A DNA stretch of 8,681 bases, taken from assembly GCA_020444775.1 (NCBI GenBank), contig JAGRHX010000253.1, forward strand, positions 1-8,681, in the 5' to 3' direction. This stretch comes from Gammaproteobacteria bacterium. Its GTDB lineage: Bacteria > Pseudomonadota > Gammaproteobacteria > HK1. Of the stretch, positions 393-8,583 are shown piece by piece. A model generated the notes under the pieces. It did not search any database, was not told where the DNA came from, and saw only the letters and a list, made by a program, of their open reading frames with translations. How positions within the stretch are numbered: position 1 is the stretch's first letter; each line of letters begins with the position of its first letter. A program made the position numbers and the translations under genes.

Positions 393-415
393 GGCGCAAA
401 TCACGCGTGGATGGC

Positions 416-421
416 TTATAT
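416..421 (+). promoter_or_regulatory. Putative -10 element of the hemerythrin gene
   Basis: TTATAT resembles TATAAT and lies 33 bases downstream of the centre of the Fnr box, the separation expected for a class II Fnr-dependent promoter that has no good -35. It predicts a transcript starting near 427, which favours ATG 452 over GTG 407 as the start of the downstream gene. Confidence 0.45.
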
Positions 422-451
422 GAGCGGGCTTTTGGACGAGGTGCAAGCTCA

Positions 452-904
452 ATGGCCGCTTACTCAACGCTTGAAATTCTCGAGCAATATGAACAGGTCC
501 GTCACGATCAGCTGAAGCTGTGCGACCGGCTTGAAGACATTGCCGATTCCCTGCCCCATGGCGTCGACCGCCAATCATGCATTTATATCGCGCGGGCATT
601 GGGCCCCTTGATGGCGCGGGCGCACCGCATTGAGGAAGACCAGCTTTTCCCCGCCGTTGAGGAGATGGGCAATATGGTGCTCGACGCGCGCACCGCGCTG
701 GCGCATCTCAAACTCGACCATGCGGGCGACATCTGTTTCGCCGAAGAGCTGATTGAGGCCCTCATGCAGGTGGGGCGGGGCGACGAAGTGCCCGGCGCGG
801 ACACGATCGGCTATATGCTGCGGGGGTTTTTTGAAAGCCTCAGGCGGCATATCGCGTTCGAGACGCAATTGGCGAATTTATTGCGCCAGCAGGTCAAGCA
901 CTAG
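452..904 (+). CDS. Hemerythrin-like (HHE cation-binding) domain protein
   Basis: A 150-residue all-helical cytosolic protein with the spacing of histidines and acidic residues seen in hemerythrin/HHE domains: H18 (VRHDQL), H58 with E61/E62 (AHRIEEDQLFP), H85/H90 (HLKLDH) and H133 with E137 (RRHIAFETQ). Such four-helix bundles usually bind a di-iron centre and handle oxygen, nitric oxide or iron. The start is set at ATG 452, with GAGG (438-441) ten bases upstream; GTG 407 in the same frame would lie upstream of the predicted transcription start. It diverges from ccoN over a shared Fnr box and ends tail to tail with the Fnr-type gene, sharing four bases. The context suggests a role under oxygen limitation, perhaps oxygen or NO sensing or buffering. 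Whether the metal site is complete cannot be settled by eye. Confidence 0.72.
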   Translation: MAAYSTLEILEQYEQVRHDQLKLCDRLEDIADSLPHGVDRQSCIYIARALGPLMARAHRIEEDQLFPAVEEMGNMVLDARTALAHLKLDHAGDICFAEELIEALMQVGRGDEVPGADTIGYMLRGFFESLRRHIAFETQLANLLRQQVKH

Positions 905-1620
905 CCGCAGCGGGCGCTTAAACGCTCCAGATCGGGAATGACGACGTGGCGGTTATTGGTCACCTCGATGACCCCGGCGCTGCGCAATTTGGTCAATTGG
1001 CGCGACACGGTTTCAATCGTCAGCCCCAGAAAATCGGCGATGTCGGCGCGCGTGAGCGGCAGGTCGAACACGGCGCGATTGGAATTTTCATCGCGGACCG
1101 GATTGATATGGGTGGCGATGAGCAGCAAAAAGCTCGCCAGTTTTTCCGAAGCGGTTTTGCGTCCCAATGTCAGCATCCAGTCACGCGCTTCATCGAGTTC
1201 GCGCAGTGTCTGGTCGAACAGGCGGTGTTCGAGCTGGGCGTTCTGCTTGAGCATGGCCTCAAAGGCGGGCTTGGGAATATGGCAGAGCTTGGTTTCGGAG
1301 GCGGCCTCGGCGGTCAACCGGCTTTCGCGGGCAAACGGGCGGCCCAGAAAATCGGGCGCGAATTGCAGTCCCACCACCTGCTGGCGGCCATCGGCGAGCA
1401 TTTTGGAGAGCTTGATCGCGCCGCGCATGACGTTGGCGTAATACTCCACCGGCTCGGATTCTGACATGAGTTCATCGCCCTCGGCATGCACGACCTGACG
1501 GGTGTGCTTGGCGATTTGCTGCAGCTCTTCTTCGTTCAAAGCGCCGCAAATCCCGTTATGGCGGGCCTCGCATTCCCGGCAGATTGAGGGGACGTTTGAG
1601 TTGTGAATGTCCTGACGCAT
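901..1620 (-). CDS. Fnr-type oxygen-responsive transcriptional regulator (FnrN/FnrL class, Crp/Fnr family)
   Basis: A 239-residue Crp/Fnr protein, the normal length for the family. The N-terminus has C14-x2-C17-x7-C25, and a fourth cysteine at C113 completes the ligand set for an oxygen-labile [4Fe-4S] cluster, as in FnrN/FnrL. The cNMP-fold sensor region spans about 30-120, a long dimerisation helix about 123-165, and the winged helix-turn-helix about 175-235. The recognition helix contains E203-x2-S206-R207, the E-SR pattern that reads TTGA half-sites, matching the box at 379-392. Under low oxygen it would dimerise and activate ccoN and the hemerythrin gene; both target and regulator lie here. 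The start ATG 1620 gives the expected cysteine-rich N-terminus, but I see no strong ribosome binding site. The stop TAG lies in a CTAG shared with the converging hemerythrin gene. I saw no complete Fnr box upstream, so autoregulation is not supported. Confidence 0.9.
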   Translation of the reverse strand: MRQDIHNSNVPSICRECEARHNGICGALNEEELQQIAKHTRQVVHAEGDELMSESEPVEYYANVMRGAIKLSKMLADGRQQVVGLQFAPDFLGRPFARESRLTAEAASETKLCHIPKPAFEAMLKQNAQLEHRLFDQTLRELDEARDWMLTLGRKTASEKLASFLLLIATHINPVRDENSNRAVFDLPLTRADIADFLGLTIETVSRQLTKLRSAGVIEVTNNRHVVIPDLERLSARCG

Positions 1621-1857: not shown

Positions 1858-4167
1858 GTGTTCAAATCAGCCCGAACTCATATGCCGGTTGTCGACTATG
1901 TGTCGATCGTCCGCTCGGTCTACAAGGACCGGGCCGGGCTGCTTTTTGGCGTTTTCGCGAGCATGATTGCTTCGGGCACAGCCGCCTTCAAGACCGATTC
2001 CGTGGCGCTTTGGGCAATTTCGGCGCTGTTTTTCGTGGTCGGCATGCTGCGCTATTGGGACATGCGCGCCTTCATGAACGCCGATATCGGGCCCGAAGAC
2101 GCCGACGCCGCTGAATACTGGGAAGGCCGGGTGACCATTGGCGGGGTCGCCGCCGCGCTGGTTTACGGCTCCTGGTGTTTTGTCAGCCTTGTCGTGGTGG
2201 ATGATAATTTCTCCGAACTGATCAGCGTGTCGATGACCGCTTCGGCGCTGGTGGGGATCGTGGCGCGCAATTTCGGGCTTGACCGGCTCATCGGTCTGCA
2301 GGCGCTGTTTGCGACCGGACCGGTGGCGCTGGGGCTGTTCATCGGGGGCGATGCCTATCATTGGGTTTTAGCGGCGCTTTTGGTTTTGCTGTCGGCAAGT
2401 TTCAGGAAGCTCGCAGGCGACGTCAGGGCCATTCTGCTCAACGCCGTGCACGGGCGCATAGAGGCGACGCGGCTTGCCGCTGAACTGGACACCGCCCTTG
2501 CCATCATGCCGCACGGGTTGTGCATGGTGGACAAGAACGGGATCATCACCGTGCTCAATGCGCAGGTGGTGAAAACCTTTTTTGGCGGCTCGCGCACCGA
2601 TTATGTGGGGCGGCCATTCACCGATCTGATTGAAAGCGGGCTGCAATCGGGCGCCTTTGACCGTCAGGCGGCGCAATTGCTGCTCGACGAGGTGCAGGAT
2701 ATGCGCCACGAAAAGCTGGTGCTGGCGCTGGCTGATGGGCGGCATTGCGAAGCGACCATCTCCTCGCGGCAGGGTTTTTCGGTGGTCATGCTCGAAGACA
2801 TTACCGAACGCGTGCGCGCGCATGAGCGCATCAGCTTTATGGCCCGTTATGACGGGCTGACCAAACTGGCCAATCGCAGCCATTTCTCCGATCAGGTGCA
2901 GGCGCAGCTGAATGAACTTGTGGCGCGCAAGGGCGGCGAGGAGGTGATGATGATGATCATCGACCTCGACGATTTCAAACATGTCAACGACACGTTCGGG
3001 CATCCGGTGGGCGACATGCTTCTGGTTGAGGCGGCGCACCGGGTCAACCAGGTGTTCGGGCAGGATTGCCTTGTGGCGCGGTTCGGCGGCGATGAGTTCA
3101 CGATCATCGTCGAGGATGTCGGGCGGGCCGAGGATGCCGCGGCCATCGCACGCAAGCTGCTCGAGGCCCTGGCCAGCCCGGTACCGCTGGCGTCGGGCGA
3201 CGTGGTGATCAGCGCGAGCATCGGCATCAGCCTGTTCCCCGATGATGCGTCCAGCGCCGCGGATCTGACCAAGGCGGCGGATACCGCGATGTATAGAGCC
3301 AAAGCGGGCGGTCGCAACATCTATCGTTTCTACACCAGCGAGCTCACCAGTCACGCTCAGGAGCGCTTCTTGCTGGAGCGTGACCTGCGGCACGCCCTGG
3401 AGCGTGACGAGCTCATCGTCCACTATCAGCCCCAGTTCGATGTCGCCAGCGGCAGGTTGGTGGGGGTGGAGGCCTTGCTGCGTTGGCAGCATCCGACCCG
3501 GGGGCTGCTCTCACCCGGACACTTCATCGAGATCGCCGAGGAAAGCGGTCTCATCAATCCCATCGGCGAATGGGTGCTCGGTGAGTCCCTGGCAGACGCC
3601 CGGCGCTGGCAGACGGCCGGGCTGCGCCTGATCCGCCTCGCGGTGAATCTATCGGGCCGGCAACTCATGAGTGACCGTCTGATCGATCGGCTGCGAGCCG
3701 ATCCGGGCCAACGGCGAACCGGCGAGGCGCAGATCGAGCTGCAGCTCGAGGTGACCGAGAGCGTGCTGCTCTCGGGGCCTGCGGTGGTGCGGCGGCTGGA
3801 GCAGCTTCGGCAGATGGGGATCGACATTGCCATCGACGATTTCGGCACCGGCTACTCCTCGCTCAGCCGCCTCAAGCATCTGCCCATCGACACGCTCAAG
3901 GTCGACCGATCCTTCGTCCAGAACCTGTCCGAGGACGAGGACAATCAGGCAATCGTCGCGGCGATCGTGCTGATGAGTCATCGTCTGGGCCTGAAGGTGG
4001 TTGCCGAAGGCGTCGAGACCGCCGAGCAACTGGCGTATCTGGCGGGGCTGCAGTGCGACGAGGCACAGGGCTATCTGTTCAGCAAGGCGGTGATGGCAGC
4101 ACGGATTGAAACCATGCTGCGCGAGGAGACTTTGCCGGCATTGGCACACGCCGACCCGGAGGCTTGA
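1858..4167 (+). CDS. Membrane-anchored PAS-GGDEF-EAL cyclic-di-GMP protein, possibly chimeric
   Basis: A 769-residue bifunctional protein of cyclic-di-GMP turnover. Five to six hydrophobic segments fill residues 25-182, then a PAS-like region (about 208-315), GGDEF (about 325-490) and EAL (about 505-755). RFGGDEF (408-414) is intact, so diguanylate cyclase activity is possible, but the RxxD inhibitory site is absent (GQDC instead). The EAL motif (538-540), LEVTES (630-635), DDFGTGYSS (660-668), KVDRSF (681-686) and AEGVE (716-720) are conserved, so phosphodiesterase activity is expected. I prefer GTG 1858, preceded by AGGTGG (1844-1849); GTG 1846 and ATG 1882 are in frame. Codon use changes after the GGDEF motif: by hand count, Leu CTT occurs 10 times before about 3100 and once after, and Phe TTT nine times before and none after. 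The C-terminal linker (FYTSEL, ERFLLERDLRHAL) has a gammaproteobacterial flavour, unlike the upstream genes. Function is well supported; being one natural gene is not. Confidence 0.85.
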   Translation: MFKSARTHMPVVDYVSIVRSVYKDRAGLLFGVFASMIASGTAAFKTDSVALWAISALFFVVGMLRYWDMRAFMNADIGPEDADAAEYWEGRVTIGGVAAALVYGSWCFVSLVVVDDNFSELISVSMTASALVGIVARNFGLDRLIGLQALFATGPVALGLFIGGDAYHWVLAALLVLLSASFRKLAGDVRAILLNAVHGRIEATRLAAELDTALAIMPHGLCMVDKNGIITVLNAQVVKTFFGGSRTDYVGRPFTDLIESGLQSGAFDRQAAQLLLDEVQDMRHEKLVLALADGRHCEATISSRQGFSVVMLEDITERVRAHERISFMARYDGLTKLANRSHFSDQVQAQLNELVARKGGEEVMMMIIDLDDFKHVNDTFGHPVGDMLLVEAAHRVNQVFGQDCLVARFGGDEFTIIVEDVGRAEDAAAIARKLLEALASPVPLASGDVVISASIGISLFPDDASSAADLTKAADTAMYRAKAGGRNIYRFYTSELTSHAQERFLLERDLRHALERDELIVHYQPQFDVASGRLVGVEALLRWQHPTRGLLSPGHFIEIAEESGLINPIGEWVLGESLADARRWQTAGLRLIRLAVNLSGRQLMSDRLIDRLRADPGQRRTGEAQIELQLEVTESVLLSGPAVVRRLEQLRQMGIDIAIDDFGTGYSSLSRLKHLPIDTLKVDRSFVQNLSEDEDNQAIVAAIVLMSHRLGLKVVAEGVETAEQLAYLAGLQCDEAQGYLFSKAVMAARIETMLREETLPALAHADPEA

Positions 4168-4198: not shown

Positions 4199-4849
4199 AT
4201 GAAGATGGATGAATGTGAGAATCCGATCCGGCAGGGCGTCGCCGCTGGGAGGCCGGCCGATACGGTCAACGAGCGAGTCGGAGCGCGGCTACGAGCCTTG
4301 CGCAGGGCACGCGGGCTGTCGCTCGAGGCCCTTGCGGCGCGCTCCGGTGTCAGTCGCTCGATGATCTCCCTGGTCGAACGGGCGGCAACGAGTCCGACCG
4401 CGGTGCTGCTCGAGAAGCTGTCCGCGTCCCTGGACGTCTCCCTGGCCTCGCTGTTCGAGGACCCTCAGCGATTGCCATTGCCACTTGCACGGCGCCGTGA
4501 CCAGACCAGCTGGCAGGATCCGCAGTCCGGCTACTTGCGTCGCAACGTCTCGCCGACCGGACCGGACGTGCCGGTCCAGATCGTCGAGGTGGAGTTCCCG
4601 CCATCGGCGCGGCTTGCGTATGAAGCTGCCCCCAGAAGCGTTCGTATCCATCAACAGATCTGGATGCTGGCCGGACAGATGGAGATAGGTCAGGGTGAGG
4701 ACTGTTATCGGCTCGCTACCGGGGACTGCCTGGCTTTAGAGCTCGATCAAGCGGTCAGCTTCTACAACCCTTCACGTCGGGCCGCGCGCTACGCGGTGAT
4801 ACTCAGTGGGCAGAGCTGCCTGCCACTGTCCACTCTTGAGGACCGATGA
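4199..4849 (+). CDS. XRE-family transcriptional regulator with C-terminal cupin domain
   Basis: A 216-residue cytosolic regulator. Residues 24-88 form an XRE helix-turn-helix: VGARLRALRRARGLSLEALA is followed by SGVSRSMISLVER, the usual turn and recognition helix, then SPTAVLLEKLSASLDVSLASLF. Residues about 125-203 form a cupin-2 barrel (VQIVEVEFPP, WMLAGQMEIG, LATGDCLAL), which in this family senses a small ligand. The start ATG 4199 has GGAAGG seven bases upstream, and a palindrome overlaps that site. The stop TGA ends one base before the start of the GNAT gene, so the two are almost certainly co-transcribed and translationally coupled. The XRE-cupin plus GNAT arrangement suggests the regulator controls the acetyltransferase in response to its substrate; that link is inferred. 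The ligand cannot be predicted. Confidence 0.88.
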   Translation: MKMDECENPIRQGVAAGRPADTVNERVGARLRALRRARGLSLEALAARSGVSRSMISLVERAATSPTAVLLEKLSASLDVSLASLFEDPQRLPLPLARRRDQTSWQDPQSGYLRRNVSPTGPDVPVQIVEVEFPPSARLAYEAAPRSVRIHQQIWMLAGQMEIGQGEDCYRLATGDCLALELDQAVSFYNPSRRAARYAVILSGQSCLPLSTLEDR

Positions 4850-4850
4850 G

Positions 4851-5402
4851 ATGACGGCATCAGTCAGCGAGGTCGGTTTTCGCATCCGCCATCTGCAGCG
4901 ACTGGAGACGGCGCAGGTCGAGGAGCTGTCCGGGTTGTTGATCGATTGCGTGGCAGGGGGGGCTTCGGTCAGCTTCATGCATCCGTTGAGCCTGGAGAAG
5001 GCCACCGCCTTCTGGCAACGGGTCGCGGAGCGGGTCGGACAGGGCCACACGGCCCTGCTGGTCGGCGAGGACGAGGACGGTATCGCCGGTAGCGTGCAAC
5101 TGATACTCGATCTTCCCGAGAACCAGCCGCATCGTGCCGACGTCGCCAAGCTGCTGGTGCACAGACGGGCCCGACGCCGTGGTCTGGGCGGCGCGCTGAT
5201 AGAGGCAGCCGAACGTCTGGCATGTGACCGTGGGCGGCGCTTGCTGGTGCTCGACACGGTGCCCGGCAGCGATGCCGAGCGGCTCTATACGCGGCTGGGC
5301 TGGCAACGCTGCGGGGTGATACCGGACTACGCGTTGATGCCAGACGGGACACCATGCGCGACCGCGTACTTCTATCGTCAGCTGGCCCCGATCGCCGGCT
5401 GA
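4851..5402 (+). CDS. GNAT-family N-acetyltransferase, tabtoxin-resistance-like
   Basis: A 183-residue acetyltransferase of the GNAT superfamily, which transfers acetyl from acetyl-CoA to an amine. The acetyl-CoA pyrophosphate loop is seen at RRRGLG (108-113), preceded by the beta-4 strand VAKLLV (98-103) and followed by helix ALIEAAERLA. LLVLDTVPGS and AERLYTRLGW (142-151) are the usual beta-5/alpha-4 elements. GGASVSFM (36-43) and the ending PDYALMPDGT...ATAYFY resemble tabtoxin-resistance (Ttr) type GNATs as I remember them, which suggests detoxification of a small amine, but this is not proof of substrate. ATG 4851 follows the upstream stop by one base and has GAGGA (4838-4842) eight bases ahead. 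It forms a two-gene unit with the XRE-cupin regulator. Confidence 0.85.
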   Translation: MTASVSEVGFRIRHLQRLETAQVEELSGLLIDCVAGGASVSFMHPLSLEKATAFWQRVAERVGQGHTALLVGEDEDGIAGSVQLILDLPENQPHRADVAKLLVHRRARRRGLGGALIEAAERLACDRGRRLLVLDTVPGSDAERLYTRLGWQRCGVIPDYALMPDGTPCATAYFYRQLAPIAG

Positions 5403-5572: not shown

Positions 5573-6400
5573 ATGCGCAATCAACCGCTGGACATTCGAC
5601 CGATCGCTGGCGCCATGGGCGCCGAGGTGCACGGCGTGGACCTGGCCGCGGGACTGGACGACCAGACCTTCGCCGAGATCAACAAAGCGCTTCTCGACCA
5701 CGGCGCCATCTTCTTCCGCGACCAGGACATCACCCCCGACCAGCAGCTTGCTCTGGCCCGGCGCTGGGGCACGGTGCATCTGCATCCACACATGCCCTGT
5801 CTGCCGGACCACCCCGGGATCATCGAGATCGTCAAGAAGGAGGACGACGTCCACACCTTCGGCGGCAACTGGCACACCGATCAGATGTTCACTCCCACCC
5901 CGGCACGCGCGACCATGCTGTATGCCAAGGAGGTGCCGGCGGCCGGTGGCGACACCTTGTTCTCGAATCTCTATCTGGCCTTCGAGAGCCTGTCCGAAGG
6001 CATGCAGTCGATGATCAAGGATCTGCGCACCGTCAGCCTCTACGACAAGCAGAAGAAGCGTGCATCGAGCATGCGACCCACCGAGCCGGACAAGCCGGCC
6101 GAGCCGGCCGTGCACCCGCTGGTGCGCCGTCATCCGGAAACCGGGCGCGACGCGTTGTACATCAGCTACGAAGGTATCACCCGTTACATCGACGGCATGA
6201 CCGAGGCGGAGAGCCGTCCGCTGCTCTCCTACCTGATGCAACACGCGACGCGTCCGGAGTTCACCTGCCGTTTTCACTGGGCGCCGGGCTCGTTGGCGCT
6301 GTGGGACAATCGCTGCGTGCTGCACCTGGCGATCAACGACTACAACGGTAAGCGACGTGTGATGCACCGGATCACCATCGAGGGTGAGCGCACCCACTGA
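5573..6400 (+). CDS. TauD/TfdA-family Fe(II)/2-oxoglutarate-dependent dioxygenase
   Basis: A 275-residue cytosolic non-haem iron oxygenase, the usual length for TauD/TfdA. It couples decarboxylation of 2-oxoglutarate to hydroxylation of an organic substrate. The iron triad is seen as H101-x-D103 (NWHTDQ) and H251 in WDNRCVLHLAINDY, with R266 (VMHRITIEG) as the 2-oxoglutarate carboxylate ligand. The N-terminal GAEVHGVDL and GAIFFRDQDITPDQQLALARRWG are family signatures. Start ATG 5573 has GGAGGG (5560-5565) seven bases upstream; ATG 5549 is in frame but lacks a site. It follows the GNAT gene by 170 bases, so may have its own promoter, and converges with the SDR. Family members act on taurine, sulfate esters, phenoxy acids and other compounds; the substrate cannot be assigned here. 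Confidence 0.9.
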   Translation: MRNQPLDIRPIAGAMGAEVHGVDLAAGLDDQTFAEINKALLDHGAIFFRDQDITPDQQLALARRWGTVHLHPHMPCLPDHPGIIEIVKKEDDVHTFGGNWHTDQMFTPTPARATMLYAKEVPAAGGDTLFSNLYLAFESLSEGMQSMIKDLRTVSLYDKQKKRASSMRPTEPDKPAEPAVHPLVRRHPETGRDALYISYEGITRYIDGMTEAESRPLLSYLMQHATRPEFTCRFHWAPGSLALWDNRCVLHLAINDYNGKRRVMHRITIEGERTH

Positions 6401-6454: not shown

Positions 6455-7234
6455 CTAGCGGTGCCCGCCATTCACGTCGATGGTCTGCCCGGTGACGAAG
6501 TCCGCGTCCGATGAGGCGAGGAAGCACACCACCCGGGCCTGCTCCTCGGCGCTGGGCAGACGGCCGAGCGGAATCAGCGACAGCACCTCGGCCTTCTGTG
6601 CCTCGCTGCGCCGCTCCCAGATCGGCGCGATGCGCTCGGACAGGGTCATGCACGGCGCGATCGCGTTGCAGGTGATACCGAAGGGACCGAGCTCCAGCGA
6701 CAGCTTGCGGGTCAAGGCGATGATCCCGCCCTTGGCGGCGGCATAGGCGGCGCTGCTGCTGGCGCTCAGGCCGCGGCCGGCAATCGAGGACAGATTGACG
6801 ATCCGTCCCGAGCGCTGGCGTTTCATGATCGGCACGACGTGATGGCAGAACAAGAAGGTGCCGGTCAGGTTGAAGTCCAGCAGCTTCTGCCAGTCGCCCA
6901 GGCTCAGCGCGTCGATCCCGGCGCTGGCATCGGCGATCACGGTGCTGCCACCGACCGCGTTGACCAACACGTCGACCCGGCCCAGATCGCGGAGCGTGGC
7001 TTCGACCACCGCCTGGACCTCGCTCTCGTTCAAGGCATTGGCGGCGTGGGCATGGGCCCGTCCGCCGGCGGCCTCGACCTCGCGTACGAAGCCGTCGAGG
7101 GCCTCGGTCTGCAGATCGACCGCGACCGGTATGCCGCCCTCGGCGGCGATGATCTCGACGGTCGCGCGACCGATGCCGTTCGCCGCGCCGGTGACGATGG
7201 CGACCTGATCCTTGAACCGCGGGGAGAATCGCAT
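6455..7234 (-). CDS. Short-chain dehydrogenase/reductase (classical SDR)
   Basis: A 259-residue NAD(P)-dependent oxidoreductase of the classical SDR type, which interconverts alcohols and ketones. The cofactor loop TGAANGIG occupies 15-22; D40 at the end of the second strand (VAVD) favours NAD over NADP. VNAVGG (91-96) replaces the usual NNAG. The catalytic tetrad is N122 (FNLTG), S150 (NLSSIAG), Y164 and K168 (AAYAAAKGG). The C-terminus has the common DADFVTGQTIDVNGGHR. ATG 7234 has AGGAG (7247-7243) about nine bases upstream. The gene diverges from the SCP2-like/hydrolase gene over a 104-base gap and converges with the dioxygenase over 54 bases. A role in oxidising a hydroxylated intermediate is plausible but inferred. 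Confidence 0.92.
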   Translation of the reverse strand: MRFSPRFKDQVAIVTGAANGIGRATVEIIAAEGGIPVAVDLQTEALDGFVREVEAAGGRAHAHAANALNESEVQAVVEATLRDLGRVDVLVNAVGGSTVIADASAGIDALSLGDWQKLLDFNLTGTFLFCHHVVPIMKRQRSGRIVNLSSIAGRGLSASSSAAYAAAKGGIIALTRKLSLELGPFGITCNAIAPCMTLSERIAPIWERRSEAQKAEVLSLIPLGRLPSAEEQARVVCFLASSDADFVTGQTIDVNGGHR

Positions 7235-7338: not shown

Positions 7339-8583
7339 ATGTTCGAGCTCCTGACCCGGCGCGGCGACACGAGCGCCGCCTTGAATCGACACCTCTCGCA
7401 CCGAACGTTGCGCGTCGAGGTGCGCATCGGTACGCGCAGCGAGCACCTGACCATCGCACCTGATGGGGTGCAGGTCAGCGATCGGCCGGGTACGAGCGCG
7501 GCCGATGTGGTGCTGAGCGCCAGCGAGCAGGCCTGGCTCGAGCACCAGAGCGCCGCGCCCGCACCGGGCTTCCAGGCACTCTCGACCATGCGTCGTTGTG
7601 GTCATCTGGAGGTGAGCGGGGACCTGCTTGCCTACCATCAGAATCTGCTGATGCTGGAGATGCTGTTCACGCCCGCCGCGCGCTGCGATGCGGCTGTCGT
7701 GGAACCGCCAACAACGCCTTATCTGGAGCCGATCGTCGGTCGTTATCTGAACCTCGCCATCGAGGGGCAGGCCTGTCGGGTGTACTTCGAGGAGGCCGGT
7801 AGCGGGGTGCCGTTGCTGTGTCTGCACACCGCGGGCGCGGATGCGCGACAGTTTCGCGCCATCCTCAACGACCCACGCGTGACCGAGCGGTTTCGAGTCA
7901 TTGCCTTCGATCTACCCTGGCACGGAAAATCATCGCCGCCCGCCGGCTTCGAGCAGACGGTCTACGAGCTGAGCACCGACCGCTACGTGAACACGGTGAT
8001 GGCGGTCATCGACGCGCTGGAGCTGCGTGATCCGGTGGTGATGGGCTGCTCCATAGGCGGACGGGTGGTGCTGCATCTGGCGCTGCGCCACGCCGAACGG
8101 TTGCGTGCGGTGATCGGGCTGCAATCGGCCCTGTACGCCGAGGATCGCACCGGCAATGTCGAACCGGGCAGTCGCATGGTCCTGCACCGGCCCGACGTGC
8201 ACGGCGGCCAGATCGCCGGCGCGCTGATGAACGGTGTGATGGCGCCGCAGTCGCCCGCCAGTGAGCGCTGGGAGACCATGTGGCACTACATGCAGGGCGG
8301 GCCGGGCATCTTCATGGGCGATCTGGCCTACTACTTCGAGGACGGTGACCTGCGCAACGGTGGCGTCTCCGGTATCGACACCCGACGTTGCCCGGTCTAT
8401 CTGCTCAGCGGCGAATACGACCCCTCGGCCACGCCGGAGATGGGGCGGGAGCTGGCCGAGCAGATCGGCGCCACCCATTTCGAGGTCATGAAGCAGATGG
8501 GGCATTTCCCGATGTCGGAGAACCCCGAGCTGTTCGCCCGCTATCTGCTGCCGGTGCTGGACAAGGTGCTGGCGCAGCCCTGA
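7339..8583 (+). CDS. Alpha/beta hydrolase with N-terminal SCP2-like domain
   Basis: A 414-residue protein in two parts. Residues about 1-115 resemble an SCP2/sterol-transfer-like fold: ADVVLSASEQAWLEHQ (55-70) and GHLEVSGDLLAYHQNLLMLE (88-107) match the strand, turn and G-x-hydrophobic-x-hydrophobic-x-G-D pattern of that family. Residues about 140-412 are a complete alpha/beta hydrolase: oxyanion region HTAGAD (163-168), DLPWHGKS, nucleophile elbow GCSIGG with S238, acid D361 (SGEYDPSATP) and base H389 (QMGHFP). Plain hydrolases of this type are about 260-290 residues, so the extra N-terminal domain is real added length. ATG 7339 has GAGG eight bases upstream; an in-frame ATG at 7252 would add 29 residues but lacks a site. 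It would cleave an ester, lactone or carbon-carbon bond; the lipid-binding-like domain hints at a hydrophobic substrate, which is inference. Confidence 0.85.
   Translation: MFELLTRRGDTSAALNRHLSHRTLRVEVRIGTRSEHLTIAPDGVQVSDRPGTSAADVVLSASEQAWLEHQSAAPAPGFQALSTMRRCGHLEVSGDLLAYHQNLLMLEMLFTPAARCDAAVVEPPTTPYLEPIVGRYLNLAIEGQACRVYFEEAGSGVPLLCLHTAGADARQFRAILNDPRVTERFRVIAFDLPWHGKSSPPAGFEQTVYELSTDRYVNTVMAVIDALELRDPVVMGCSIGGRVVLHLALRHAERLRAVIGLQSALYAEDRTGNVEPGSRMVLHRPDVHGGQIAGALMNGVMAPQSPASERWETMWHYMQGGPGIFMGDLAYYFEDGDLRNGGVSGIDTRRCPVYLLSGEYDPSATPEMGRELAEQIGATHFEVMKQMGHFPMSENPELFARYLLPVLDKVLAQP

Follow-up and report, generated by a model that had tools for sequence, protein, structure and literature searches.

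Chimeric contigs are common when similar genes are assembled, and short contigs can be chimeric. One study states that such contigs tend to form between similar gene homologues (PMC4133164), and another describes, in bacteria, homology-facilitated illegitimate recombination, with one end homologous and the other illegitimate (PMC3240628). The locus described here resembles assembly chimeras of similar genes in its abrupt change of lineage at a stretch common to homologous genes, and differs from them in that no exact shared word turned up when genomes of both sides were sampled. It shares with homology-facilitated illegitimate recombination one junction in homologous sequence, whereas the second, illegitimate junction is unseen within the contig. 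At the protein level, the closest systems are the PAS_7-GGDEF-EAL proteins of a family found in our genome sample, for which "Devosia-type" is our own label, and PAS-GGDEF-EAL proteins of a mainly gamma/betaproteobacterial type. The protein studied here has the front half and the overall length (~769 residues) of the former, but its back half falls outside that family's own identity range; it has the back half of the latter, but differs from them in its front half and sensor part. The contig joins the DNA of two bacterial lineages inside the GGDEF motif of a single gene, most likely through a false assembly join (probability of about 0.83).

The window, that is, the whole stretch of DNA that was analysed, is 8,681 bases long and appears to be the whole contig. 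The GGDEF-EAL gene on the forward strand has an open reading frame that starts at 1846 or 1858 and ends at 4167. For the protein of 769 residues, Pfam matched PAS_7 at residues 215-322, GGDEF at 329-487 and EAL at 508-743, and no Pfam family was matched in residues 1-214. The features are:

407..904, + strand: hemerythrin-domain gene, left block (Pfam PF01814; codon usage of the left side)
901..1620, - strand: gene for an FnrL-like Crp/Fnr regulator (fnr), left block (NCBIfam FnrL best match; codon usage of the left side)
1858..3099, + strand: front of the mosaic gene, Devosia-type, with the sensor part, PAS_7 and the start of GGDEF through the GGDEF motif (searches, trees, identity comparisons)
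3073..3100, + strand: seam over the RFGGDEF codons, where the similarities of both lineages overlap (profile change-point and DNA similarity)
3100..4167, + strand: back of the mosaic gene, gamma/betaproteobacterial type, with the remaining GGDEF part and EAL (searches, trees, identity comparisons)
4199..4849, + strand: XRE-family regulator gene, right block (Pfam HTH_3; best relatives Burkholderiales-like)
4851..5402, + strand: GNAT acetyltransferase gene, right block (Pfam; neighbour of XRE in Burkholderiales-like loci)
5573..6400, + strand: TauD/TfdA-family dioxygenase gene, right block (Pfam PF02668; codon usage of the right side)
6455..7234, - strand: short-chain dehydrogenase (SDR) gene, right block (Pfam; codon usage of the right side)
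7339..8583, + strand: alpha/beta hydrolase gene, right block (Pfam; full-length relatives up to 70%; codon usage of the right side)

Relatives and trees of the two halves

Comparison at the sequence level confirmed that the GGDEF-EAL gene is a mosaic, with residues 1-414 grouping with Devosia-type PAS_7-GGDEF-EAL proteins and residues 415-769 with mainly gamma/betaproteobacterial PAS-GGDEF-EAL proteins. The initial annotation had proposed that two genomes meet in this gene, and separate protein searches with the two halves indeed led to different lineages, with conflicting trees. Among the best 120 of 529 front-half hits, the first was the mosaic protein itself, and 25 rows named an organism, which was Devosia in 22 and Pseudomonas sp., Alphaproteobacteria bacterium and uncultured Pelagibacterium in the other three. 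Among the best 120 of 7,995 back-half hits, 16 rows named an organism: 10 were gamma- or betaproteobacterial, three were unranked Pseudomonadota, and three came from other phyla (Allocoleopsis, and Dehalococcoidia twice). Median scores for front and back were 372 and 181 bits among the 119 best relatives of the front, and 65 and 330 bits among the 119 best relatives of the back.

The identities within the protein families pointed the same way. Within the 119 Devosia-type proteins, the back parts are 43.1-100% identical to each other (7,021 pairs), whereas the back part of the mosaic protein is only 30.7-38.3% identical to them, under the family minimum, and is 45.9-58.0% identical to the 119 proteins of the back set. 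The difference between back and front identity was -18.5 points for the mosaic protein, and the lowest value among the 119 front-set proteins was -5.5. Homologues matching from end to end, the observation that the initial annotation had set against its own proposal, were sought, and 100 of the 121 genomes of the Devosia-type family have such a homologue at 1e-120 or better, almost always over the full length; but when 35 of these loci (33 genomes, two of them represented twice) were read per half against the window, the fronts were 45-51% identical and the backs 34-40%, and every one of the 35 kept its own EAL half. The family had been missed in a first draw of 289 alphaproteobacteria-like genomes and in one small order (43 genomes), and was seen in another order (199 genomes).

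Quick trees (LG+G4) were made with 30 proteins taken from each set of 119. In the tree of the front of GGDEF, which comprises only 89 columns, the mosaic protein nests in a 14-row Devosia-type set with a support of 97, and in the tree of the back half it nests in a 17-row gamma/beta-type set with a support of 99. These nested sets, which were taken from the trees before testing, were used for placement tests, in which forcing the mosaic protein into the other set was rejected for the back half (p = 8e-65) and for the front (p = 0.009), while controls with the same sets and without the mosaic protein were not rejected (p = 0.569 and 0.564). A coarser test, which asks on which side of the central branch the mosaic protein lies, left both alternatives standing (p = 0.204 for the back half and 0.535 for the GGDEF front).

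Position of the seam and codon usage

The place of the seam was located by proteins and by DNA. In a scan of profile log-odds, the switch from a Devosia-type front to a gamma-type back fell at 3099/3100 (interval 3067-3106), immediately after residue 414, the final residue of the GGDEF motif. For the mosaic protein this switch brought a gain of 174 log units, whereas 237 of 238 control proteins gained no more than 10.3; the scan modelled only this order of the two types and not the reverse. The remaining control (P0104), with a gain of 54, is a truncated protein with an odd negative score confined to its last 20 columns. Of the 12 hits in which DNA similarity to Devosia-type loci extends furthest, 11 run to 3099-3100 and one to 3131. 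For non-alphaproteobacterial loci, similarity sets in at 3073 for three genomes (L199/L205, L200 and L202/L207) and at 3217-3394 for the five others. As judged from these similarities, the seam is a stretch of approximately 28 bases over the RFGGDEF codons, 3073-3100. The seam sits at the left edge of the span originally flagged, 3085-3240, and the suggested in-frame meeting of two lineages just after the GGDEF motif is supported, with the seam on the GGDEF codons and the frame unbroken across it.

Codon usage and composition also differ between the two sides. A recount reproduced exactly the numbers counted by hand in the initial annotation, both for Leu CTT (10 before 3100 and 1 after) and for Phe TTT (9 of 25 before 3100 and 0 of 8 after). 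The shift in codon choice that had been placed just after the motif is found as a contig-wide split at this gene, but the synonymous-codon change-point within the gene peaked at 2929, not 3100, and its score was matched in 3 of 200 synonymous shuffles; codons alone give a modest signal within the gene and locate the seam only weakly. When each gene was left out in turn, all three left genes tested scored as left (hemerythrin +20.0, fnr +16.1, and the front half of the GGDEF-EAL gene +14.1) and all six on the right scored as right (back half -30.0, XRE -7.8, GNAT -19.3, TauD -27.9, SDR -25.2, and hydrolase -43.7). In 500-base segments, the GC content ranged from 0.53 to 0.62 for those that end no later than 3000 and from 0.61 to 0.69 for those that begin beyond it. 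In the 5.6 kb to the right of the seam, up to the hydrolase gene, codon usage did not revert to the Devosia type, and the contig ends at 8681.

The blocks on either side of the seam

The unity of the left block rests only on codon use and on the fact that every piece of it has Devosia-type relatives. The fnr gene was present in 15 of 20 Devosia-type genomes, whose best copies are 59-67% identical to it, and NCBIfam FnrL was its best match with 219 of 300 bits, under the cut-off. Among 17 Devosia-type fnr loci, 4 have a hemerythrin relative next to fnr, which suggests that the two genes form a conserved oxygen- or redox-linked pair. In the window, these two genes (407-1620) are convergent and overlap by 4 bases. 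Neither fnr nor hemerythrin had a match of more than 60 bits near the Devosia-type GGDEF-EAL genes, whether in five loci that span 19-19.5 kb or in 30 others read with less flanking sequence. The fnr/hemerythrin neighbourhood is not family-defining, and its absence from these loci counts against a single native left block; an additional seam may lie in the interval 1620-1858.

By its relatives, the right side can be assigned only as far as gamma/beta, and no genus is claimed for it. It is placed no finer because its parts favour different groups: the XRE gene favours the Burkholderiales-like order, in which 12 of 200 genomes held a match at 1e-25 or better (best 59%), compared with only distant relatives in 369 genomes of the Gammaproteobacteria-like class (31% for the best-scoring match), and the back half of the GGDEF-EAL protein slightly favours the gamma-like class, with matches at 1e-100 or better in 11 of 296 genomes (best 53%), over the Burkholderiales-like order, with matches in 2 of 150 genomes (best 50%). 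XRE and GNAT (4199-5402) are paired not only here but also in Burkholderia stagnalis (L112), and 4 of 7 Burkholderiales-like XRE loci have the same pair.

The hydrolase is a poor guide to the lineage of the right side. The best 80 of its 569 loci were mostly from alphaproteobacterial metagenome-assembled genomes (MAGs), with some from Gammaproteobacteria, Burkholderiales and Rokubacteria, and no match to XRE or GNAT was found among them. Pfam covers only the part of this protein of ~414 residues after approximately residue 150, and the front part is without a named family. Full-length relatives at 60-70% identity are frequent in metagenomes and alphaproteobacterial MAGs. Scans of viral contigs with the hydrolase and with the 48-base word at 3079-3126 found no related locus. 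A plasmid origin was also considered and rejected: parts of the first 8,000 bases have matches in 438 plasmid records, none of which covers 80% in one place.

Origin of the join

A false assembly join is favoured because the window appears to be a whole short contig with a single seam that is not followed by a return within 5.6 kb, because that seam lies in the most conserved motif, and because the mosaic protein has only one known member. An abrupt change of lineage and of composition at one point of a contig, the mark of interspecies chimeras, was found here. Such a join would have arisen if both organisms were present in one sample, each with a GGDEF-EAL gene sharing the same word of ~20 bases over RFGGDEF, at which, at low depth, an assembler or a chimeric read would have crossed from one genome to the other. 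Since all GGDEF genes read the motif in the same phase, the crossing by itself would keep the frame open, and an open frame therefore does not point to a working hybrid. Between unrelated genes, exact runs of 20-22 bases at the GGDEF motif were seen in 2 of 336 pairs of Devosia-type and non-alphaproteobacterial genes, and, given tens of GGDEF-type candidates per genome, many genome pairs would be expected to share such words. However, the exact 21-base word of the window over the motif was found in 1 of 121 Devosia-type genomes and in none of 150 Burkholderiales-like genomes, and the longest exact runs between the window and the compared loci were 18 bases on the Devosia-type side and 17 on the non-alphaproteobacterial side. 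The rarity of this word and the lengths of these runs, which are short for assemblers that use longer words, count against the simplest form of a false join, and neither parent gene was found among the genomes sampled. The weight of this reading, like the low and very low weights that we give to the two alternatives below, is a judgement.

Alternatively, a Devosia-type bacterium may have taken up other proteobacterial DNA, with recombination at the GGDEF core and a second junction that would lie outside the contig. We consider this unlikely, and just as unlikely the product that it would have left, a c-di-GMP sensor enzyme with the bacterium's own sensor front and a foreign EAL half from another class, imported with at least five neighbouring genes. 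The seam does lie in homologous, in-phase sequence with the frame open, and homology-facilitated illegitimate recombination has been described in bacteria (PMC3240628). A seam that keeps the frame and falls on the coding word with the highest conservation is predicted by real recombination and by a false join alike. Against recombination, the similarities of the two lineages overlap by only ~28 bases. Furthermore, no second junction was found by codon use within 5.6 kb, all 35 Devosia-type loci examined retain their own back half, and the hybrid protein is a single member on one short contig, the same arrangement being found in no independent genome or contig among the best 120 of 529 front-half hits or the 35 loci. 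Nothing in the data requires a living hybrid. It is very improbable that there is no join at all and that the EAL half and neighbouring genes of a single lineage merely diverged or changed their codon use. The weak codon change-point within the gene and the coarse test of the central branch would allow this, but the firm nesting of the back half among gamma/beta-type proteins, the rejected placements with controls that pass, and the like split of the flanking genes by codon use argue against it.

A search of the literature found no title about false joins at GGDEF, which does not imply absence from print. If the join is real, this gene would be a direct case of the swap of an output domain in a c-di-GMP enzyme between distant bacteria. 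If the join is false, as we think most likely, it shows how hybrid proteins with an open frame and a full set of domains can arise at the GGDEF motif and pass gene calling and domain annotation, and such hybrids could be mistaken for domain shuffling in c-di-GMP signalling. The biology itself would then be ordinary, and the contig would serve as a warning for claims of domain swapping that are based on GGDEF-EAL proteins from metagenomes.
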